The notes under the pieces were generated by a model, which had not been told where the DNA came from, did not search any database, and saw nothing but the letters and a program-made list of their open reading frames with translations. Position numbers and translations under genes: made by a program. 25,546 nucleotides of DNA, taken from a virus. Shown in pieces: positions 1 through 18,880 of this stretch (positions are counted from its first letter, which is position 1; every line of letters starts with the position of its first letter). The stretch is from positions 1 to 25,546 of IMG/VR virus record IMGVR_UViG_3300032820_000100; one strand, written 5' to 3'.

Positions 1-165
1 CTTTAAGACAATCGGATCCTGGGTAATGTCTCGTGTGACATGGGACCAGTCAAAATTTCCAATTCCTACGTCGTTTATCATATTAGCATACCTCTCGCAT
101 TCCTTCTTAGGCAGGTAGTTTTTAAAAGTATAAACAACATCTTCACCTTGTTGGAGTTTTTTCAT
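1..165 (-). CDS. Possible 2OG-Fe(II) oxygenase, N-terminal part (cut by window edge)
   Basis: Only the first 55 residues are visible; the frame is open to base 1. It starts MKKLQQGEDVVYTFKNYLPK and continues KECERYANMINDVG. A hydrophobic beta strand followed by 'NYLPKKECERYANMI' resembles the opening of prolyl-hydroxylase-like 2OG-Fe(II) oxygenases, where a 'fLs..EC..l' segment precedes the first helix. The catalytic HxD...H...R region would lie outside the window, so the family call is a guess from the N-terminus and from the other oxygenases nearby. The ATG at 165 overlaps the stop of the upstream nuclease gene as ATGA, which makes this the last visible gene of the leftward operon. The start is well supported; the function is not. 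Confidence 0.5.
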   Translation of the reverse strand, partial: MKKLQQGEDVVYTFKNYLPKKECERYANMINDVGIGNFDWSHVTRDITQDPIVLK

Positions 166-536
166 AAGGTCACCGTCGTGTCCTCTCGTACCCAGGGCGT
201 ACCCAACGTTTCAATGTCCACGCGTTCTCCAGTCGTACTCCCTCCGTTAATGAAACATTCCTTGGTATCCAGATTCAGGATATGGATACCATAGCGCTTG
301 TTCTTAGGTCGATGTCGACTGATAGGAGAGCCATCAGTCCGCTTACTCATATACTTAACATCCAATAGAGTAAGCTTTAAAGTTTCCGGATTAAAAGTAA
401 TGAAGTCCACACCTCCTCCGTTGACCGTTTTATAAACATACAGTCCCTTATCAATAAGATAATGCTGAGCCAACGCTTCCGCTGCATGGCCCTTATGATG
501 CTTATGATACATCACAAGATCCGGCTTATAGGTCAT
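162..536 (-). CDS. PD-(D/E)XK endonuclease / Holliday junction resolvase-like protein
   Basis: The 124-residue protein has the layout of small PD-(D/E)XK nucleases. A helix near residues 16-30 carries E20 (GHAAEALAQHYLIDKG), a Gly-rich turn leads to D44 (GGGVDF), and a strand ends in D59-V60-K61 (LLDVKY). E20, D44, D59 and K61 would form the metal site. The size and the order of motifs fit phage resolvase-like nucleases that cleave branched DNA, but a host-DNA or modification-directed nuclease is equally possible. The start is the ATG at 536, six bases after the lysine-rich peptide gene, with GGAAA upstream. The end overlaps the next gene as ATGA. It shares an operon with the halogenase-like gene, so its job may not be replication. 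Confidence 0.72.
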   Translation of the reverse strand: MTYKPDLVMYHKHHKGHAAEALAQHYLIDKGLYVYKTVNGGGVDFITFNPETLKLTLLDVKYMSKRTDGSPISRHRPKNKRYGIHILNLDTKECFINGGSTTGERVDIETLGTPWVREDTTVTL

Positions 537-541
537 AGTCT

Positions 542-679
542 CTATTTCCTTTTCTTTTTATTTTTCTTCTTCTTCTTTTTCTTTTTATCTTTTTTCTTCT
601 TTTTCTTTGGCATGAGCTCCTCCTTTCTACGATTAAATTCTTCTTCACTAATCAGATTAAATTCGTCTTCACTCATCAT
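542..679 (-). CDS. Lysine-rich small protein with acidic repeat
   Basis: This is a 45-residue ORF. Its first half is two tandem copies of an acidic octapeptide (MSEDEFNL, ISEEEFNR). Its second half, from M23 on, is almost pure lysine (MPKKKKKKDKKKKKKKKN then KKKRK). The ATG at 679 overlaps the stop of the halogenase-like gene as ATGA, the coupling used by most genes here. There is also a strong internal start: AAGGAGG at 619-625 lies five bases before the ATG at 613, which would give only the 23-residue polylysine part. Both forms may be made. I do not recognise a family. Binding to nucleic acid or to an acidic partner is plausible from charge alone. Being a modification substrate is a hypothesis treated in the findings. 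Confidence 0.6.
   Translation of the reverse strand: MMSEDEFNLISEEEFNRRKEELMPKKKKKKDKKKKKKKKNKKKRK
631..678. repeat. Tandem 24-base direct repeat
   Basis: Two adjacent 24-base units (631-654 and 655-678) both begin GATTAAATTC and differ at only two positions (641 versus 665, and 650 versus 674). Within the lysine-rich peptide gene they encode an in-frame duplicated octapeptide with the pattern (M/I)SE(D/E)EFN(L/R). The second unit ends at the stop codon of the upstream halogenase-like gene. Confidence 0.9.
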
Positions 680-1815
680 GAAAAATAGTTATATCCAAAG
701 TCTTTGTCAAGTTGCTGTAAATGAGACGCCTCGTAAAACCAAGGGGGTACATAACCTGGAACTCCCTTAGCATTATAATATTTAAAGTCTCGTACGACGC
801 GTTCCATTTCAACACTCTTTTTTAACTGAAGCAAAGCTCCTTGTTGAGCAAGTTTCCAGAATTTAGAAAAAATTGTCGAACCTCCATGATAGTAGTAATA
901 AATCATATCCTTGGTGTTTTGGATGCCTCGAGTAAAGTCTCGATTGGTTCGTTGAATAGAAGAACCCTTGGTTAAGACCGAAAGAACAAGACGATTGATT
1001 TGGTTGTAAACAAAAAGAGAGTTAGAGGACAGAGGCTCAAAGAAGAAAGCACGATTGCCATTCTTAAAGACGCGTCCATCACAGATCTCGTTAGCTTGGT
1101 AAGGGGTAAAAGAATATTCAATTGGATCTAGGTCTTTGATTGGTACATTAATTTCTTTAGAAAAATTAGCCTGTGCTTCTTTCTTAGAAGAGATAGCATC
1201 AGAGTACATATATCCATACGACTGACGTTCTTGTAAAGGAATCGTAAACATCCAGCCATCAGGAGTAGCGACGTGGCCGGTATAGTTCCATGTTCCGGGC
1301 TTCTTGATGTTATGAATCAATGCATGATTGACCAACATACCAGGAGGATTCGTATAGCCTGAATAGTCGGTCGGGAATCCCCGACAGTCTATAATAAAAT
1401 CATAGTCCAGGTCATCTAAACTTTTAACTGTTTGTTCTTTAACTTTAAACTTGGAAGACCACTTCTTAACAAGAAGAGGTAGGATATAATTTTTCATACG
1501 ATGAGTATCAATATGAATAGCGATAGCTCCATCCCAGAGGGGATTAATAAACGAATGTTTTCTCCATTTTTTAAAAACTGTTCCAATCTTTATGGTTCCT
1601 TTGATAGTGTCTAAATCTTTATAGAGATTAAAATCAATAGCGCGTTGCATCTCTGTCATAAAAGAAGGCTGAGTGCTTTCTCCTATGCCTACACTCTTGA
1701 TGTTAGGATCGTGAATAGAAGTAATTTGCCAATCATTAGGTAGCCACGAACAAAAATAGCATAGACTTTGTAGTCCGGCGCTTCCTACTCCTATGATAGC
1801 TAGTGTTTTTTTCAT
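676..1815 (-). CDS. Flavin-dependent (tryptophan halogenase-like) halogenase
   Basis: This 379-residue flavoprotein belongs to the tryptophan-halogenase family. FAD binding is shown by the N-terminal G9-V-G11-S-A-G14, by GIGESTQP (43-50, family form VGEaTiP) and by D143-C-R-G146. The segment GTIKIGTVFKKW (73-84) aligns without gaps to the block holding the catalytic lysine of PrnA/RebH, giving K76. GWMFTIP (187-193) matches the family WxWxIP motif except that F190 replaces the second Trp. EPLSSNSL (260-267) matches the EPLESTG block, but the catalytic Glu is replaced by S263. It is shorter than bacterial tryptophan halogenases (about 500 residues). It may chlorinate, brominate or iodinate a small molecule or peptide using FADH2, or the Glu loss may have redirected the chemistry. 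No flavin reductase is visible. It is coupled by ATGA to genes on both sides. Confidence 0.85.
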   Translation of the reverse strand: MKKTLAIIGVGSAGLQSLCYFCSWLPNDWQITSIHDPNIKSVGIGESTQPSFMTEMQRAIDFNLYKDLDTIKGTIKIGTVFKKWRKHSFINPLWDGAIAIHIDTHRMKNYILPLLVKKWSSKFKVKEQTVKSLDDLDYDFIIDCRGFPTDYSGYTNPPGMLVNHALIHNIKKPGTWNYTGHVATPDGWMFTIPLQERQSYGYMYSDAISSKKEAQANFSKEINVPIKDLDPIEYSFTPYQANEICDGRVFKNGNRAFFFEPLSSNSLFVYNQINRLVLSVLTKGSSIQRTNRDFTRGIQNTKDMIYYYYHGGSTIFSKFWKLAQQGALLQLKKSVEMERVVRDFKYYNAKGVPGYVPPWFYEASHLQQLDKDFGYNYFS

Positions 1816-2117
1816 ACCTTATAAAAAGTATAACGAACGGTAAGCTCTTCTCCTTCTTTAATATCTTGCGCTGCAACAAGATTCCATTTTTTATAATCAA
1901 AGGAATCGTTTGTCATGAGGAGTTCCACCTTAACACAATTCGCTTCATTCGCATGATTAATGAACCCTCCGAGTGGAGTTCTAAAGATTGTATCTTTGAT
2001 CTCCATATGACTCATACCCATGTTGGTTCCAATCGCAATATTTTCGAGAGCAAAGAGTCCCAGTGCGTGAATTTTTGATGTTTTAATCGTCAGATAGTTG
2101 GGTAAAGGTTTATACAT
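1812..2117 (-). CDS. Minimal SET-domain protein (putative lysine methyltransferase)
   Basis: The 101-residue protein is essentially a bare SET domain. The opening strand and loop read KIHALGLFALENIAIG (15-30), matching the 'GlGlFA...I..G' start of SET domains. GFINHANEANC (51-61) is the SAM-binding NH motif, with N54 and H55. DIKEGEELTVRYTFY (85-99) is the C-terminal 'I..GEELt..Y' block, with Y96 as the likely catalytic tyrosine. There are no pre-SET or post-SET cysteine clusters. SET enzymes transfer methyl groups from SAM to protein lysines; the substrate here is unknown. The gene starts one base into the stop of the upstream gene (TAATG) and ends overlapping the halogenase-like ATG as ATGA, so it should be made together with that protein. 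Confidence 0.82.
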   Translation of the reverse strand: MYKPLPNYLTIKTSKIHALGLFALENIAIGTNMGMSHMEIKDTIFRTPLGGFINHANEANCVKVELLMTNDSFDYKKWNLVAAQDIKEGEELTVRYTFYKV

Positions 2118-2317
2118 TAGTTATGTGGACATCTATCCCGTTTAGTTAATTCTCTTGGTCTTTTATAATCTTTCCATTTACAATTAAAAATGTGCAAGCC
2201 GTCCTCCGTCAGGATTCGGAGCTGCCAACCCCAAGGTTTGGCTTCTTCCCAATGCTTAATGTACGTTGGATACTCGGTTAAACTATCTCCTCTTCCTGCT
2301 GATTCTTTAAGTTTCAT
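2117..2317 (-). CDS. Hypothetical protein, Trp-rich
   Basis: The 66-residue protein is soluble and charged, with five tryptophans mostly in YIKHWEEAKPWGWQLRI and CKWKDYKRP. No family is recognised. It carries two cysteines and has a basic C-terminus. It overlaps the end of the upstream methyltransferase gene by 11 bases and is joined to the SET gene by TAATG, so it is probably a real gene of the same transcript. No signal peptide or membrane segment is seen. Confidence 0.65.
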   Translation of the reverse strand: MKLKESAGRGDSLTEYPTYIKHWEEAKPWGWQLRILTEDGLHIFNCKWKDYKRPRELTKRDRCPHN

Positions 2318-2927
2318 ATTCTTTCCTTAGTACTTTTTTTTGATCTCCTTTTTTAATTTCTTTAAACCCATGCTCCATACATGCACATTCAATTAATTCC
2401 ATATTATATAATTTATAATCATCAAAACAAAACGTTGTGCCCACATGCGATCGGTCGCAGAAGAATAGAGCTTCCCTCAGGACGTCTACCGTTCTATGCG
2501 GCCCGTCGAAATGAACCACTGTATATTTATCTAAAAGTTTAGGTTTATCGTCGTAGATGGTAAGACCACTACGATACTTAGACATGAATTCACAATCCGT
2601 CATTTCCATCAGGTGGAAGTTGGGATAGTCGATCAGGTCTTTTTTTAAACGAAGTTTCATTAAATTAGTATAGTCTGTTTTTGGGTGTTCAACGACAGCA
2701 TTATTCTCATCGAAGTGCACATAGGTAAGATCTCCATAAGGATCGATTCCAATGTGATGATGAGTTCCGTGATTCTTGTTCTGTATTTCATCCATCATAA
2801 TCTTTGAACCCATTCCCTCACGCACACCGATCTCGCACGTAAGATAATAATCAATGCTTTGAAGTTTATAGGCACTCTTGACGGCTGCGGCCAGGAGTTC
2901 GTACTCACCACTATCCCCTTTGATCAC
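2307..2927 (-). CDS. Class I SAM-dependent methyltransferase
   Basis: The 206-residue protein has a Rossmann methyltransferase layout. CEIGVREGMGS (31-41) is motif I for SAM binding, and IGIDPYGDL (59-67) is the second strand with D62 as the ribose-binding acid. VVHFDGPHRTVDV (137-149) and FCFDDY (167-171) match the DG.H and DDy signatures of the Methyltransf_24 / macrocin-O-methyltransferase group, which methylate hydroxyls and often need a metal. The start is a GTG at 2927 preceded by AAGGAAAT. It overlaps the upstream coiled-coil gene by 17 bases. It begins the run of tailoring enzymes that continues into the SET and halogenase-like genes. The substrate cannot be told from the sequence. 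Confidence 0.78.
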   Translation of the reverse strand: MIKGDSGEYELLAAAVKSAYKLQSIDYYLTCEIGVREGMGSKIMMDEIQNKNHGTHHHIGIDPYGDLTYVHFDENNAVVEHPKTDYTNLMKLRLKKDLIDYPNFHLMEMTDCEFMSKYRSGLTIYDDKPKLLDKYTVVHFDGPHRTVDVLREALFFCDRSHVGTTFCFDDYKLYNMELIECACMEHGFKEIKKGDQKKVLRKEYET

Positions 2928-3090
2928 GTATTTCCTTCTCTAAAGCTATAATTCTATGATTAAGTCCACCGATCGTCGTATGCATCCAACCACAGTCATG
3001 AGGCTCAATTTTTTTTTCAAACCAAGCAATAGTTTCTTTTAAAACTTTAATGCTTGTTTCCAAAGAGTCCAAGTGTTTTATCTTTTGCAT
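2911..3090 (-). CDS. Small coiled-coil protein
   Basis: This is a 59-residue, mostly helical protein. The heptad-like segments are HLDSLETSIKVLKETIAWFE and, after a CGWMHTTIGG turn, LNHRIIALEKEI. The turn EPHDCGWMHTTIGGLNHR is familiar to me from uncultured marine phage proteins, but no function is known. I take the ATG at 3090 rather than the TTG six bases upstream. It overlaps the end of the lipoprotein gene by 44 bases, which is long for this genome, but both reading frames look like genuine proteins. It may be an accessory or multimerising factor. Confidence 0.65.
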   Translation of the reverse strand: MQKIKHLDSLETSIKVLKETIAWFEKKIEPHDCGWMHTTIGGLNHRIIALEKEIRDQRG

Positions 3091-3298
3091 AGTCAACTAT
3101 ATATTTCTTTCCTTTTTCATAAGCGTGTTGTTTAATTCCTTTCTTGGTTGCAAGTACTACTCCCATATCTACGCCATTATATAATTTAACGTAAGAATTT
3201 TGGCTAATGGCCACAGAACTTCCGCTCATAAGCAGTGCAAATTCACTGCAGCCTGTGGTGGTGATCAGTAATAAGCTTATTGATAAAATCTTTTTCAT
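3047..3298 (-). CDS. Small lipoprotein
   Basis: The 83-residue protein has a textbook lipoprotein signal: MKK, a hydrophobic stretch ILSISLLLITTTG, and the lipidated C17. The mature part is small and basic, including YVKLYNGVDMGVVLATKKG and a lysine-rich helix. It would be anchored in the outer or inner membrane of a Gram-negative host. The ATG at 3298 has GGAG nine bases upstream, inside the end of the zinc-finger gene. The function is unknown; a host-surface or superinfection role is possible but unsupported. Confidence 0.8.
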   Translation of the reverse strand: MKKILSISLLLITTTGCSEFALLMSGSSVAISQNSYVKLYNGVDMGVVLATKKGIKQHAYEKGKKYIVDYAKDKTLGLFGNKH

Positions 3299-4087: not shown

Positions 4088-4303
4088 ATGAAATATGTTT
4101 TAATAGTATGGGTGTGCTCTTTTATCCAGGGAAACGCATGTATGGCCCCGGTCGAATATCCTACCCTATATAATAGTTGGTATGAGTGCTCTCGTGATGC
4201 ACATGTGGAATCTGTAAAGCTTTTATCTAAGATGGGCTATAAAAATGTTAATGACTACAAAGTAGGAACCAAGTATCACTGTAAAGCGGTTCCGACTTAT
4301 TGA
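4088..4303 (+). CDS. Small secreted Cys-containing protein
   Basis: The 71-residue protein is the only small gene on the plus strand. The N-terminus MKYVLIVWVCSFIQGNA is a signal peptide, probably cut after GNA. The mature part has three cysteines (C18, C34, C65), with the segment YNSWYECSRDAHVESVKLLS. It resembles a recurrent marine-phage family with the same Cys spacing, from memory. It is probably exported to the periplasm; the function is unknown. Its start lies beside the leftward promoter, and I see no convincing promoter of its own. It faces the related-looking minus-strand gene at 4379-4594 across a hairpin. Confidence 0.78.
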   Translation: MKYVLIVWVCSFIQGNACMAPVEYPTLYNSWYECSRDAHVESVKLLSKMGYKNVNDYKVGTKYHCKAVPTY

Positions 4304-4379: not shown

Positions 4380-4594
4380 TATTGACAATACCAACCGGCA
4401 ACTTCTACATTAGAATTATTTAAGATCCATCCTTGATCTTCACCTTTTTCCTCAGGTCCGTGGTACGTGGCTAGTTTCTCAAGAACCTTATAACCCTGAG
4501 TAAAACAGTCGGGTTTAGCCTTATAATAAACTTTATGATCCACTGTGGGAAAAGTAAGTAAGGCTCCTGTGGCTAGAATAATTATTATTTTCAT
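4379..4594 (-). CDS. Small secreted protein
   Basis: The 71-residue protein has a signal-like N-terminus (MKIIIILATGALLTFPTV) and two cysteines in the mature part (C30 in KPDCFTQGY, C70 in GWYCQ) that could form a disulfide in the periplasm. It is the same length as the plus-strand secreted protein opposite it and has a similar plan, so the two may be distant relatives. Its ATG overlaps the stop of the upstream oxygenase gene by 4 bases. The function is unknown. Confidence 0.7.
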   Translation of the reverse strand: MKIIIILATGALLTFPTVDHKVYYKAKPDCFTQGYKVLEKLATYHGPEEKGEDQGWILNNSNVEVAGWYCQ

Positions 4595-5142
4595 TTTTTA
4601 TCCTCTATTTTAAAGTTAAAAGAAACAGAAATACGTACATCATCACTTAAGTTACGTGTAACATGATGATCCATGGTTGAAGGAAATAGAAAAAATTCAC
4701 CTGCTCTAGGCATTATAGGATATTTGTTAGTAACATGACTATTATGAGGGTAAAGAAAAACAAGATGACCTGATTTTTCTGGAACTTGGACATAATATAC
4801 TCCTGAAACATAAATTCTTCCTTCATAATCCTCTTTCTCAATATGATTATGAGTAACTGTACTCATATTTTTTTTATGAATGTGAGCCCAGAAATTTAAT
4901 AGTTTTAAATTTTTCTTATTTAGATAACCGAACTGAGTAATAATATGAATTATAACTTTTTCAAACTCCGGGTTTATTGGAAATATGGTATCTTCATGCC
5001 TGCTTACAATATAAGTAGTATCTTTAGGATCTTTTATATAAGGTTGGGGATCTTTTAATATTATTTCTTTAAACTTTTCATTGTCGATTCCAGGCACAAA
5101 CCCTCTACTAAATGCTATAGTATGTATTACATTATTATACAC
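4591..5142 (-). CDS. 2OG-Fe(II) oxygenase (PF13759-like)
   Basis: The 183-residue protein matches the compact 2OG-FeII_Oxy_5 group. THNHIEKED (97-105) holds the first iron ligands around H98/H100. SGVYYVQVPEKSGHLVFLYP (113-132) is the conserved double-stranded core. PRAGEFFLFPSTMDHHVTRN (145-164) carries the distal His (H159 or H160), and R170 in DDVRISVSF should hold 2-oxoglutarate. The usual HxD acid is not obvious: HNH stands in its place, as in several members of this group. It would hydroxylate an unknown protein or metabolite, releasing succinate and CO2. The start is GTG, directly after the TAA of the upstream gene, with AAGGA before it. Confidence 0.82.
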   Translation of the reverse strand: MYNNVIHTIAFSRGFVPGIDNEKFKEIILKDPQPYIKDPKDTTYIVSRHEDTIFPINPEFEKVIIHIITQFGYLNKKNLKLLNFWAHIHKKNMSTVTHNHIEKEDYEGRIYVSGVYYVQVPEKSGHLVFLYPHNSHVTNKYPIMPRAGEFFLFPSTMDHHVTRNLSDDVRISVSFNFKIEDKK

Positions 5143-5274
5143 TTATCCTTGACCCCTTGATTTCTTTCTCCGAGGGACTCTCTTTCCGTAGTGCTTCGCA
5201 TGACGCCCCGGTCGTTTGCGAGGTGTAACTTTTATATGTTTATAGCCGTAAAGTCTAGGCTTTGTCCGCGCCAT
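5143..5274 (-). CDS. Small Arg/Lys-rich protein
   Basis: The 43-residue, strongly basic protein starts MARTKPRLYGYKHIKVTPRK and continues RPGRHAKHYGKRVPRRKK. PRKRPGRHAK recalls an AT-hook-like or ribosomal-protein-like tail. From memory, very similar peptides recur in uncultured marine phages. It probably binds nucleic acid. It overlaps the zinc-ribbon gene upstream by 20 bases and is followed immediately by the oxygenase GTG (TAAGTG), so the three genes are cotranscribed. Confidence 0.75.
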   Translation of the reverse strand: MARTKPRLYGYKHIKVTPRKRPGRHAKHYGKRVPRRKKSRGQG

Positions 5275-5503: not shown

Positions 5504-5594
5504 ATTTTGATTTCCTTCTATATTTAGTTTTATCTTTAAATCGTTGAGGTGTAAAGTATTTTAAGAGGCGAGCTATAGGGTTCTTTTTCTTCAT
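5457..5594 (-). CDS. Small basic protein
   Basis: The 45-residue basic ORF starts MKKKNPIARLLKYFTPQRFK and has a further basic stretch, KYRRKSKY. Its ATG at 5594 overlaps the stop of the upstream oxygenase as ATGA, which is the main evidence that it is translated. It runs 47 bases into the zinc-ribbon gene in another frame, which is unusual. If the overlap is not real, the ribosome-binding site of the zinc-ribbon gene simply lies in its tail. Confidence 0.6.
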   Translation of the reverse strand: MKKKNPIARLLKYFTPQRFKDKTKYRRKSKYAPIWKRSMGPGNRD

Positions 5595-6274
5595 TGGCGC
5601 GCTCTATGTGATTCAGAAAGAGGATAACGTAACATGGTTCCATTAGTAAAAGCAATCGATGTAAGAAACGTCGAAACAGTTAAACGATCGGAGGGAGTTT
5701 CCTGAACATAGTGAGCTCCATGAAATTGTGAACTATCATAAATAAAAATACGATTAGGGAAAGCTTCAACCGTTACAGTTTTGTGATAACAATCATTATT
5801 TTCTTTTAAAGCTTTTAAATAATCACTCTTTTTTACTGAAGCTGGATCTTTAAGATAATTTTCTTTTACTTTGAGTGAGTCTCCCGTTATAGGATAAACA
5901 TGAGCCCCTTTTCCTACCTTAGTTCCTTTAGGCCTGTATAAAGATGTTCCTGTTCCTGGTCCTCCTTTTAAATAAACAACAGAAGAAAGCTCAGAAGTAT
6001 CTCGGTGGACCCATCCTTCCCCTAAATGATGAGGAGGAATGCGTTGAAAATATTGTTCACCACTCCATCGTAAATTTCTCCAATCATTAGGATATAAAAG
6101 AGCTACTATACTTGCGGTAGAGGAATAAAAAAAAGATGAGTCAGCAATAAAAGTATTTTCACTTCTTTCACCAGGAGTATTATAATCTGGCTTATAAGTT
6201 AGAGTTTTTGCATATTCAAGAATTGTTGGTAGATCTCTAAAAAAATTATCTTTACAAATTGTTGGCCACAACAT
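5591..6274 (-). CDS. 2OG-Fe(II) oxygenase, DUF6445-like
   Basis: The 227-residue protein has a full iron-binding triad. H90-R-D92 is in GEGWVHRDTSELSSVVYL, H185 is in DSSQFHGAHYV, and R197 in SDRLTVSTFL should bind 2-oxoglutarate. The 'GGPGTGTSLYR' segment between the HxD and the distal His matches DUF6445-like oxygenases, which typically have 'G.GT.fyr'. The substrate is unknown. Its sequence differs clearly from the other oxygenases here, so it is not a recent duplicate. The ATG at 6274 has only a weak ribosome-binding site. The end is coupled by ATGA to the basic peptide. Confidence 0.8.
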   Translation of the reverse strand: MLWPTICKDNFFRDLPTILEYAKTLTYKPDYNTPGERSENTFIADSSFFYSSTASIVALLYPNDWRNLRWSGEQYFQRIPPHHLGEGWVHRDTSELSSVVYLKGGPGTGTSLYRPKGTKVGKGAHVYPITGDSLKVKENYLKDPASVKKSDYLKALKENNDCYHKTVTVEAFPNRIFIYDSSQFHGAHYVQETPSDRLTVSTFLTSIAFTNGTMLRYPLSESHRARQ

Positions 6275-15745: not shown

Positions 15746-17176
15746 ATGAAATATAAGTTTAGAACAGTACCCTATGGGCATCAGCTCAAGGCATTAGAAA
15801 TGTCCTGGACTAAGGAAACCTATGCCTACTTCATGGAAATGGGAACAGGAAAAACTAAAGTGCTATTAGATAATATGGCTCTGTTATATGATCAAGGAAA
15901 AATCGATGGAGCTTTAATCATTGCTCCTAAAGGTGTAGTTAATACTTGGTACCAACAAGAAATTCCCATCCATTTACCGGATCATATTGAACATAGAGCT
16001 GTTTTATGGCAAGCAAATATTACTCAAAAACAACAAGATAAATTAGACTTATTATTTGAAATAGGGCACGAGCTCCATATCTTTATTATGAATGTAGAAG
16101 CCTTGAGCACTACTAAAGGTGTTAAATTTGCTTATAAGTTTATTTCTTCTCATAAAACTTTGATGGTAGTGGATGAAAGCACCACTATTAAGAATCCTAA
16201 AGCAAAACGTACTGCTAATATTATTAAATTATCTAAGTTTACTAAATATCGACGAATATTGACTGGATCTCCGGTAACCAAAAATCCTCTTGATCTTTAT
16301 AGTCAATGTGAATTTTTGAGTCCTTCTCATCTGGATAATGGATCTTTTTATTCTTTTAGAAATAGGTATGCAGAAATGAAAACAATGAATTTTGGTGGAC
16401 GTCAAGTTCAAATTGTAGCCTTTTACAAAAACCTAGAAGAGCTAGCTGAAAAATTAAAAGCTTTTTCTTATCGTGTTTTAAAGAAAGACTGCCTCGATCT
16501 ACCTGATAAAATTTATATGAAAAGGGTAATAAGTTTAACGGAGGAACAACAAAAAGTCTATAATCAAATGAAGAAAACAGCACTGGCAGAGCTTAATGGA
16601 AAGAAGATCACTACTGCATTAGCTTTAACTCAACTTATGCGTCTTCATCAAATTACATGTGGCCATTTTAAATCGGATGATGGTGAAACACAGGATTTAA
16701 AACAAAATCGTTTAGATGAATTAATGGATGTTTTAGAAGAGATAGAAGGAAAAGCAATTATTTGGGCACATTATCAACATGATATTAAAAAAATCGTAGA
16801 GGAATTAAAAAAGGTCCATGGTCCGAGTTCCGTGGTTGATTATTATGGGTTAACGCCTCATGATGAAAGACAGAAGAATAAAGACGCTTTTCAGAATGAT
16901 TCTAAAGTAAGATATTTAGTAGGAACGCCTCAAACAGGAGGATACGGAATTACCCTTACTGCCGCTAATACTGTGATTTATTATTCTAATGGATATGACC
17001 TGGAGAAGCGATTACAGTCCGAAGACCGTGCACACCGAATCGGTCAACATAAGCCTGTAACCTATGTAGACATCATCGCGGATAAAACGGTAGATCAGAA
17101 AATTGTCAAAGCTTTACGCAATAAAATTAATATTGCTTCTCAGATATTAGGAGAAGAACTTAGGTCATGGATTTAG
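15746..17176 (+). CDS. SNF2-type (SF2) DNA translocase/helicase
   Basis: The 476-residue ATPase is the only large gene on the plus strand. Walker A is EMGTGKTK (31-38). Walker B is VVDEST (141-146), with Ser-Thr in place of the usual Ala-His. LTGSPVTKNPLDLYSQCEFL (172-191) is the SNF2-type motif III block. The C-terminal lobe has KAIIWAHY, then GTPQTGGYGITLTAANTVIY and SEDRAHRIGQHKPV, the SNF2 motif VI. It translocates on double-stranded DNA, perhaps remodelling or restarting replication forks; no nuclease or other domain is fused. It diverges from the replication operon across a tiny promoter region and converges on the O-methyltransferase gene. Confidence 0.93.
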   Translation: MKYKFRTVPYGHQLKALEMSWTKETYAYFMEMGTGKTKVLLDNMALLYDQGKIDGALIIAPKGVVNTWYQQEIPIHLPDHIEHRAVLWQANITQKQQDKLDLLFEIGHELHIFIMNVEALSTTKGVKFAYKFISSHKTLMVVDESTTIKNPKAKRTANIIKLSKFTKYRRILTGSPVTKNPLDLYSQCEFLSPSHLDNGSFYSFRNRYAEMKTMNFGGRQVQIVAFYKNLEELAEKLKAFSYRVLKKDCLDLPDKIYMKRVISLTEEQQKVYNQMKKTALAELNGKKITTALALTQLMRLHQITCGHFKSDDGETQDLKQNRLDELMDVLEEIEGKAIIWAHYQHDIKKIVEELKKVHGPSSVVDYYGLTPHDERQKNKDAFQNDSKVRYLVGTPQTGGYGITLTAANTVIYYSNGYDLEKRLQSEDRAHRIGQHKPVTYVDIIADKTVDQKIVKALRNKINIASQILGEELRSWI

Positions 17177-17219: not shown

Positions 17220-18212
17220 TTAAGCCAAAGGTTTTTTCGCCGTCGTCAATGAATAATAACCGAAAGTTGGAATCGTTTGGAAATCGATAAATCCAGCCTG
17301 TTCTAATAGTAATTGCAGTTCTTTCGCTGTGTATTGTTTTCCTTGTTCATATAATAACATGGAAATAGAAAAGCAGGCGATGGGTAAAGGACCAGTCTTA
17401 GATGCATTCAATAACATTTCATGAAGACAAATAGTTCCGCCTGGTTTAAGAGTTGTGAAAGCTTGTCGCGTTAAATGTTGAAGGGATTTTAAATCCCAAT
17501 CATGAAAAACATTTCCAAATAATACACCATCATAATTAACAGGCCAAGGATCTTTAAACATATCCGTAGCTTGTACTGCTATACGATCTGTTAATTTATT
17601 TCTTTTAATATTTTGTTGGGTACGTTGACCTACTCTTTCTAATTCCATAATGGTAGAACGTAGTTGAGGACAATGTTTAGCTAGAGCAATACATAATGAT
17701 CCGGATCCACCTGCAACATCCAAGAGAGTATGCATAGATTTAAAAATAGTTTGATTACTGAGAGCCACAGCTGCGGGTGCAGTTATGATATCCATATGAT
17801 GAATAAAATGATTGAGTTGTTCATCACTAAAACCATGAAGGTAATATCTTTCAGAGCTATCAAAATTTTCAGAAGATTTTGTTAGAGCAGGACGTAATTC
17901 TTTTACTATGGAGTAATGTGATTCTATAAGTTGACCATAATAAAATGGACCTGAAGGAAGTAAATAAGTACGCGCAACTTCTGTTAAAGTGTAATGATTC
18001 TCTGAGTATTTCTTCAAGAAACCCAGCGCACTTGCTACTATCATCATTGCTTCGGTCGCTCGCAAAGTTAAATGTAATTCATCAGCCACCGTTTCAATAG
18101 TCTTAGGGGAGAGTGCTAAACATTCAAACAGTTTTACTTCTTGTGCAATTCCTATAGTTGGAAAAGCATATGAATTTAATCGTAGCTCATATATTTTGCG
18201 ATCGTCAATCAC
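17220..18212 (-). CDS. SAM-dependent O-methyltransferase (COMT/hydroxyneurosporene type)
   Basis: The 330-residue enzyme has the two-domain plan of small-molecule O-methyltransferases. The N-terminal winged-helix dimerisation domain (about 10-86) includes VKLFECLALSPKTIETVADE and FLKKYSENHYTLTE. The catalytic domain has LLDVAGGSGSL (163-173) for SAM, E190 as ribose ligand, D217-M-F, and FHDWD (236-240) with H237 as the catalytic base of this family. LKPGGTICLHEMLL (255-268) completes the fold. Family members methylate hydroxyls of aromatic or isoprenoid compounds. Its full bacterial length suggests it was acquired from a bacterial donor. The GTG start is 2 bases after the upstream stop, so it is coupled to the oxygenase gene. 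Confidence 0.88.
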   Translation of the reverse strand: MIDDRKIYELRLNSYAFPTIGIAQEVKLFECLALSPKTIETVADELHLTLRATEAMMIVASALGFLKKYSENHYTLTEVARTYLLPSGPFYYGQLIESHYSIVKELRPALTKSSENFDSSERYYLHGFSDEQLNHFIHHMDIITAPAAVALSNQTIFKSMHTLLDVAGGSGSLCIALAKHCPQLRSTIMELERVGQRTQQNIKRNKLTDRIAVQATDMFKDPWPVNYDGVLFGNVFHDWDLKSLQHLTRQAFTTLKPGGTICLHEMLLNASKTGPLPIACFSISMLLYEQGKQYTAKELQLLLEQAGFIDFQTIPTFGYYSLTTAKKPLA

Positions 18213-18214
18213 TT

Positions 18215-18880
18215 TTATTTTATTTCTTTATGCCAAAAATATTGTGGATGACCTGTTGCACGTGCAGCGGCTTGATTATAAATTTGTTCATTCATTTCTT
18301 GAGAAAGATCAGCATCAACAGATTGAATAAAGCAATTAGTAGAGTAACGGACTCCTGTTTTAATAGGACTCACTTCATGAACCCAAAAAAAATCCGCAGG
18401 CCAGATCATTCCTTCTCCTTTTTTTAATGTAACGGTGTGTTGACTATTCCAAAACCCAAATACTCCGCCGGTATAGTTATCATTTAAGTTAAAAGTACAG
18501 CTGGCATAAGTATAATCAGAAAAGTCAGAATGAGGGTGAATCTTTGCTCCTACCTCATACTTTAAGAGCCTGTACATATGAGAAAAGTTTAAACATTTAG
18601 AGAGCAGAGGGAGATGGAAAGCTTTAAATTGTTTTAAATAAAGTAACCATTTTTCAACCATGGCTTTAGTTTTTTTATGCACGAGTTCATGTTCCTTACT
18701 CTTAGCAGGAAGACTCAAGCATTTAAAAGTTGATTGCGTATCAATCCCTGTGTTTGCTTCTGCACAATTTTCTAAAATGGATTCTTTCTCATGTTCCTTA
18801 TGGTAGTTCATTAATAATTCACATTCTTGATCGGACATTATATTAGGAACTTTCAATATTAAATCCTGAATATTAAACAT
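18215..18880 (-). CDS. Prolyl-4-hydroxylase-like 2OG-Fe(II) oxygenase
   Basis: The 221-residue protein begins with VPNIMSDQECELLMNYHKEH, the usual N-terminal helix of this family. YEVGAKIHPHSDFS (108-121) gives iron ligands H117 and D119 (HSD). FNLNDNYTGGVFGFW follows, then KKGEGMIWPADFFWVHEVSP (153-172) with H168. GVRYSTNCF carries R178 for 2-oxoglutarate. It hydroxylates a protein side chain or a small molecule. Next to an O-methyltransferase, it could make the hydroxyl that is then methylated; that link is inference. It has its own promoter, with almost no leader before the ATG. Confidence 0.85.
   Translation of the reverse strand: MFNIQDLILKVPNIMSDQECELLMNYHKEHEKESILENCAEANTGIDTQSTFKCLSLPAKSKEHELVHKKTKAMVEKWLLYLKQFKAFHLPLLSKCLNFSHMYRLLKYEVGAKIHPHSDFSDYTYASCTFNLNDNYTGGVFGFWNSQHTVTLKKGEGMIWPADFFWVHEVSPIKTGVRYSTNCFIQSVDADLSQEMNEQIYNQAAARATGHPQYFWHKEIK

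Follow-up and report, generated by a model that had tools for sequence, protein, structure and literature searches.

Does a run of overlapping genes that brings together a methyltransferase, a lysine methyltransferase fold and a halogenase-like enzyme represent a dedicated modification system? The question is raised by the IMG/VR record IMGVR_UViG_3300032820_000100, a viral contig of 25,546 bases, which was analyzed as a whole and is called the window below. On its minus strand, a block of eight short genes runs from position 3096 down to the contig start. A reading made without database searches (the sequence-only reading) had proposed that the genes from 2927 down to 165 form a coupled modification operon. 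Our comparison favors a different answer. We put a probability of roughly 0.6 on the block being the distal accessory region of an HTVC027P-type pelagiphage, with protein-modifying enzymes that were recruited singly, are probably co-transcribed and serve no dedicated pathway.

Gene order and conservation of the block

From the 3096 end, the block consists of a small open reading frame (ORF) of 61 amino acids with a TTG start (o61, 2911..3096), a S-adenosylmethionine (SAM) methyltransferase of the PF13578 type with 206 amino acids and a GTG start (2307..2927), a second small ORF of 66 amino acids (o66, 2117..2317), a minimal SET-domain protein of 101 amino acids that is predicted to be a protein-lysine methyltransferase (1812..2117), a compact flavoenzyme of 379 amino acids resembling flavin-dependent halogenases (676..1815), a lysine-rich peptide ORF of 45 amino acids (542..679), a possible nuclease (162..536) and the 5' part of a gene that runs off the contig end (1..165). 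The junctions, in the same order, are a 17-base overlap, an 11-base overlap, a 1-base overlap (TAATG), ATGA, ATGA, a 5-base gap and ATGA, where each ATGA is a 4-base overlap. The run of short overlaps noticed by the sequence-only reading is therefore borne out, and co-transcription and translational coupling of the block genes are plausible. The profile matches also agree with the enzyme types it had named, namely PF00856 for the SET protein (E 6.4e-8), PF13578 for the methyltransferase (E 7.6e-6) and Trp_halogenase PF04820 for the flavoenzyme (E 9.6e-32).

The conserved set is where that reading fails. We compared four groups of loci, namely 80 SET loci (of at least 591), 80 methyltransferase loci (of at least 80 in IMG/VR), 80 compact-halogenase loci and 80 loci with a halogenase like the cyanophage enzyme VirX1. 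SET and the methyltransferase occurred together in 0 of the 160 SET and methyltransferase loci, and no locus among the 80 SET and 80 compact-halogenase loci held both of these genes. The parts are found separately. Locus L028 carries o61-o66-SET without the methyltransferase, its o61 being 67 % identical to that of the window, while L098 and L161 carry o66-methyltransferase without SET. The relatives of o66 preceding SET (L024, L028 and L030) are 75-77 % identical and those preceding the methyltransferase (L098 and L161) are 38-40 % identical. Because these two arrangements occur apart, the window interleaves parts that are known separately. Across the 80 SET loci, the commonest setting of the SET gene is between a small ORF and the DNA polymerase gene, or after a small ORF named o83. 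The closest relatives of the window halogenase (51-54 %) are in other phages, between 2-oxoglutarate (2OG) oxygenases and tail genes. A single conserved operon can thus be ruled out, since the parts do not co-occur among the compared loci; independent scatter in related phages, which the sequence-only reading had named as the outcome that would speak against it, is largely what the synteny comparison found. From gene content, the block is a one-off mosaic and no conserved system. The only SET-halogenase pair in the loci examined is in L063, a related pelagiphage whose SET gene overlaps a full-length VirX1-like halogenase gene by ATGA (L253 is the same contig).

Independent scatter would also fit random accessory cargo without any common role, in which some genes may be inactive. 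We consider this highly improbable, as the active-site residues of the SET protein and of the flavoenzyme are kept across highly diverged copies, and every frame of the block is open and tightly packed.

Phage affiliation and genomic position

Judged by its genes, the contig is part of the genome of an HTVC027P-type pelagiphage. Its DNA polymerase is 49 % identical to that of Pelagibacter phage HTVC027P and 47 % to that of 023Pt_psg01, and the window shares with these two phages and HTVC023P the order of primase, helicase, DNA polymerase A, PurM-like protein and several small accessory ORFs. The block lies in the accessory region between the DNA polymerase and the terminase, a stretch that is variable among HTVC027P-type phages, and the window methyltransferase has a counterpart in the same genome region of HTVC027P (gp24, 38 %). 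The three phages differ from the window in that the 30 kb compared of each gave no SET or halogenase match. From these relatives, we infer a host of the SAR11 group, bacteria that abound in the ocean. In HTVC023P-type phages, many co-located 2OG genes have been reported, often with ferrochelatase, and halogenases are not mentioned (PMC9599517).

The mini-SET protein

The 101 residues of the SET protein make up a complete minimal SET fold. PF00856 is matched above the gathering score, and the AlphaFold2 model has a mean predicted local distance difference test (pLDDT) value of 89.9; this model and that of the flavoenzyme were made from alignments without phage-record sequences. The structural matches include the MLL1 SET domain (Z 12.4 over 93 residues) and vSET (Z 11.7), and in sequence the protein is nearer to the MLL-type SET than to vSET. 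The invariant positions read RTPLGGF.NH....N and E...Y, with N54, H55, N60, E91 and Y96 present in all 18 to 22 sequences; NH....N forms the SAM side and E...Y holds the catalytic tyrosine. Its predicted role is the SAM-dependent methylation of a lysine that lies in a flexible stretch of some phage or host protein.

vSET of chlorella virus PBCV-1 (PDB 1N3J, 3KMA) is likewise a very small viral SET domain. However, it has 119 residues and methylates Lys27 of histone H3, whereas the phage protein is shorter and its presumed host is a bacterium. The mini-SET is widespread in marine phages (at least 591 loci), and a literature search on phage SET proteins produced no relevant result. With 101 residues against the 119 of vSET, it may be a convenient starting point for studying protein-lysine methylation in infected bacteria.

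In many pelagiphage-like contigs, the mini-SET gene is found between a small ORF named o81 and the DNA polymerase A gene (L020, L021, L031, L033-L037, L049-L057). Its place beside DNA polymerase A suggests that it is expressed together with the replication genes.

The lysine-rich peptide

A short lysine-rich ORF could be a chance low-complexity frame, but this is ruled out by its recurrence, its Shine-Dalgarno sequence and a shared acidic N-terminal part. The common design is an acidic part of the SEEEFN..KEEL type, a Shine-Dalgarno sequence and then M(A/P)KKKK, and some phages have the lysine part only. In the window, translation from an internal start at 613, which is preceded by AAAGGAGG, would yield a 23-residue peptide, MPKKKKKKDKKKKKKKKNKKKRK. 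Peptides of this design were found at 15 of the 80 SET loci (about nine lineages), 0 of the 80 methyltransferase loci, 1 of the 80 compact-halogenase loci and 0 of the 80 VirX1-like loci. On whole contigs, they were present in 6 of 23 that bear SET versus 0 of 27 others; the matches on the SET-less contigs G037 and G038 were to a different, acidic protein. Such peptides were found at 17 loci in an unbiased pattern scan, and ten or more of these loci share proteins with SET-type phages. On these counts, the lysine-rich peptide is a conserved gene so far seen almost only in SET-bearing or related phages. Such a peptide could bind nucleic acid.

These counts bear on the strongest form of the modification-system idea, that the block is a functional unit in which SET methylates the lysine-rich peptide (a minimal pair of writer and substrate, comparable to a histone tail) and the halogenase and methyltransferase modify the same product. 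The overlapping genes, the near-restriction of the peptide to SET loci and the adjacency of SET and a VirX1-like halogenase in L063 all speak for it. On the other hand, SET and the lysine-rich gene are 2.3-4.1 kb apart in L028 and L047, where the latter follows another small ORF. Most SET loci lack such a gene within reach, and both genes may simply mark one phage lineage. Also, the methyltransferase and the compact halogenase never join SET or the lysine-rich gene elsewhere. In L047 the lysine-rich gene has as neighbors not SET but the genes of a 96-residue protein and of the terminase small subunit, the latter following it; because of this, shared lineage may explain the link between the two genes. 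Taken with the scatter of the other parts, we regard the functional unit as improbable and keep to enzymes recruited one by one.

The compact flavoenzyme

The window flavoenzyme has 379 residues versus about 500-550 in most tryptophan halogenases of the PDB. Its AlphaFold2 model (pLDDT 95.5) aligns with tryptophan halogenases over 365 residues, with Z values of 38.4 for AbeH (root-mean-square deviation 3.1), 32.1 for MibH and 30.2 for VirX1. The aligned residues span about 470 of the target, so that about 100 residues are absent internally in the compact enzyme.

Conservation was counted in an alignment of 46 compact relatives, with the PrnA equivalences taken from our own alignment. The GxGxxG motif for binding flavin adenine dinucleotide (FAD) is kept, with G9, G11 and G14 in 46/46, and so is the catalytic lysine (K76, equivalent to PrnA Lys79, in 46/46). 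The WxWxIP motif appears as WxFxIP, its second tryptophan being replaced by phenylalanine in all 46 (W188, F190 and P193 in 46/46). At the position of PrnA Glu346, glutamate is found in 33 of the 46 members, and it was lost in the subclade of the window, where the residue is Ser263. By a strict motif test, the window protein is classified as a compact variant within PF04820 and not as a canonical tryptophan halogenase.

In a tree of the compact relatives and three VirX1-like sequences, the compact enzymes form a clade with two main branches and the VirX1-like sequences are outside it. The window enzyme groups with those of L173 and L175 (support 100/99), and the copies of the HTVC027P-like loci L225, L234 and L247 are in the other main branch. 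Because these copies fall in different branches, compact enzymes were acquired at least twice by pelagiphages. The phage of L063, by the affinity of its gene, acquired a halogenase of the VirX1 type. When 84,980 prokaryotic genomes were scanned, the compact family turned up on five marine metagenome-assembled genome contigs only, two of them near-identical to viral loci; the scan patterns were narrow, and absence elsewhere is no proof. Within the limits of these patterns, the compact family appears to be almost virus-only.

Several known enzymes are similar to the window protein. VirX1 (cyanophage Syn10, PDB 6QGM) is also encoded by a phage, with the fold of tryptophan halogenases, the FAD motif and the catalytic lysine, and both kinds of enzyme are found in 2OG-oxygenase arrays. 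However, VirX1 has 531 residues and a WxWxIP motif and lies outside the compact clade, and the window copy is without the glutamate. The short 'PrnA' genes of T4-like cyanophages (T4-GC 212; S-SSM5, S-MS29 and S-ShM2) are of the same compact type and 31-34 % identical. They are annotated only as tryptophan halogenases, lie beside gp33 in S-SSM5 and S-MS29 and, unlike the window copy, keep the glutamate. MibH (PDB 5UAO), the tryptophan 5-halogenase of a lanthipeptide, has the same fold, but it is a bacterial, full-length enzyme of a peptide-antibiotic pathway. It is a peptide halogenase and so a precedent for a peptide substrate. The short cyanophage 'prnA' genes have been on record since 2010 (PMC3037559).

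In tryptophan halogenases, FADH2 and O2 give hypohalous acid, which reaches the substrate via the lysine, and the glutamate activates the substrate (PMC8407142). The compact enzyme would similarly bind FAD and react FADH2 with O2. By way of the invariant Lys76, an oxidized halogen, or perhaps oxygen alone, would then be delivered to an aromatic side chain that is exposed on a bulky substrate. With its substrate-binding part shortened, the enzyme would suit a peptide or protein better than free tryptophan.

Two other activities have to be weighed here. The flavoenzyme may be a monooxygenase that hydroxylates tryptophan or tyrosine of a protein, as does QhpG in the making of the tryptophylquinone cofactor; QhpG has a halogenase-like fold and dihydroxylates peptidyl tryptophan, which makes it a precedent for protein-tryptophan monooxygenases (PMC7876137). 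This is a possibility that we take seriously while considering it unlikely. The serine at the Glu346 position, the change from WxWxIP to WxFxIP and the usual 2OG oxygenase neighbors are all consistent with it, and QhpG is the sole NCBIfam match (E 0.001, 18 bits, against a curated cut-off of 240). On the other hand, the catalytic lysine of halogenases is invariant, and the profile search finds tryptophan halogenases at E of about 1e-36 with QhpG absent from the list. Membership in the QhpG family itself was rejected, the match being weak, below the cut-off and unsupported by the profile search.

Alternatively, the block enzymes may serve auxiliary metabolism by modifying small host metabolites such as indoles, phenolics or signaling molecules, which would alter SAR11 physiology. 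In published work, halogenases of phages are classed as auxiliary metabolic genes, and VirX1 accepts a wide range of small aromatics in vitro (PMC10452541, PMC8407142). However, the compact enzyme is without about 100 residues of the larger enzymes, the neighborhoods consist of tail-fiber genes and 2OG arrays and not of metabolic genes, and SET enzymes act on protein. We therefore doubt this account and prefer singly recruited enzymes that, as we infer, act on proteins.

2OG-oxygenase arrays and glycine-rich tail genes

The neighborhoods of the halogenase relatives indicate what such proteins might be. It was found that 2OG-Fe(II) oxygenase genes number 2.7 per 10 kb at the compact-halogenase loci and 5.0 at the VirX1-like loci, an independent set, compared with 0.23 at the SET loci and 0.38 at the methyltransferase loci used as controls. 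After dereplication, 35 of 50 compact genes have a 2OG gene within 2.5 kb, and 27 of the 50 are directly adjacent to one, often with short overlaps. The neighbor proteins keep both iron-site histidines and belong mostly to PF13640 or PF13759, with up to 38 of 49 matching 2OG or DUF6445 families of Pfam. Glycine-rich ORFs were present at 26/80 compact-halogenase and 43/80 VirX1-like loci (69/160 together) versus 0/160 SET and methyltransferase loci, and all four that were examined belong to PF21722. For example, in L173, the nearest relative, an oxygenase-halogenase-oxygenase run is flanked by tail-fiber, glycine-rich and virion structural genes. This association is not described in the literature examined on phage halogenases.

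From this context, the relatives of the compact enzyme would act jointly with 2OG-Fe(II) oxygenases, which would hydroxylate the same target, and the most likely natural targets in the array phages would be virion proteins, for instance the glycine-rich tail proteins whose genes lie next to theirs. We tentatively propose, as an idea that may well be wrong, that the virus-specific compact and VirX1-like flavoenzymes of marine phages, together with 2OG arrays, halogenate or hydroxylate side chains of the phage's own glycine-rich tail proteins and so chemically mature its receptor-binding structures, and that pelagiphages recruited single members, here beside a mini lysine methyltransferase. The modification of a virion or host protein, which the sequence-only reading had suggested, fits the wider context, where tail genes lie beside halogenase and 2OG arrays. 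No natural substrate of phage 'tryptophan halogenases' is named in the literature examined, and the association provides a concrete candidate, the virion's own tail proteins. If the proposal is true, phage tail proteins would mature chemically, through halogenation or hydroxylation, a process of which we know no description, and the compact enzymes would serve as small catalysts for chemistry at the protein level.

Several points weigh against the account preferred here. The window halogenase gene lies outside the 2OG and tail context, surrounded by accessory genes that follow the replication genes, and the window fragment holds no glycine-rich tail gene. With Ser263 in place of Glu346, halogenation by the window copy may be weak or lost; the substrates and activities of the block enzymes are predictions from sequence. 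No 2OG gene was found within 2.5 kb of 15 of the 50 compact genes, partly from too little flank. Some of the seeds of the 2OG search were themselves halogenase neighbors, though the Pfam and motif checks agree with it, and the control loci come from other phage groups. Tail-fiber regions are general insertion hot spots, so that proximity need not mean a substrate. Also, in L063 the genes of SET and a halogenase are adjacent, so that the two may be linked.

Apart from these comparisons, up to eight 2OG-Fe(II) oxygenase genes are found per array with halogenases (L173, L175, L179, L231, L241, L254-L332). Six loci (L193, L194, L197, L282, L309, L329) hold three or four halogenase-like genes in a stretch of about 11 kb, and L193-L198 also carry a carbamoyltransferase gene, with a heptosyltransferase-like gene in some.

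Other genes of the block and the window

The 124-residue product of 162..536 had been called a PD-(D/E)XK nuclease. Its matches to YraN (E 0.005) and UPF0102 (E 0.14) are weak and below the cut-offs, and with phrog_5018 (E 6e-4) they leave it a possible nuclease of the YraN/UPF0102-like type; a relative in L013 is 35 % identical. The terminal gene, previously read as perhaps a 2OG oxygenase, is a 54-residue fragment marginally resembling the N-terminus of such enzymes; it matches phrog_17902 at E 0.004, and its best local matches are 2OG ORFs at the marginal E of 0.01-0.05. A defence or anti-defence role of the block was also considered, and PADLOC, a weak test, gave no match.

Three 2OG-type genes lie elsewhere in the window. 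A 2OG-Fe(II) oxygenase gene (4591..5142, PF13759 E 2e-12) precedes the block by 1.5 kb and shares its strand, and a 2OG-oxygenase-like gene of the DUF6445 family (5591..6274, PF20043 E 7.8e-10) is also on the minus strand. The third (18215-18880) is directly followed by the gene of an O-methyltransferase with a dimerisation domain (PF00891/PF08100), and the two (17220-18880, minus strand) are downstream of the gene of a 1337-residue virion structural protein and may be a second modification pair. A very basic 43-residue protein (MARTKPRLYGYKHIKVTPRKRPGRHAKHYGKRVPRRKKSRGQG) is encoded at 5143-5274 on the minus strand and is kept in about 11 related loci. At 4088-4303, a small plus-strand ORF runs opposite to the surrounding minus-strand genes, and its relatives in about 30 loci mostly likewise run counter to their neighbors. 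Finally, a SNF2-type helicase gene at 15746-17176 is on the plus strand and is flanked by minus-strand modules.

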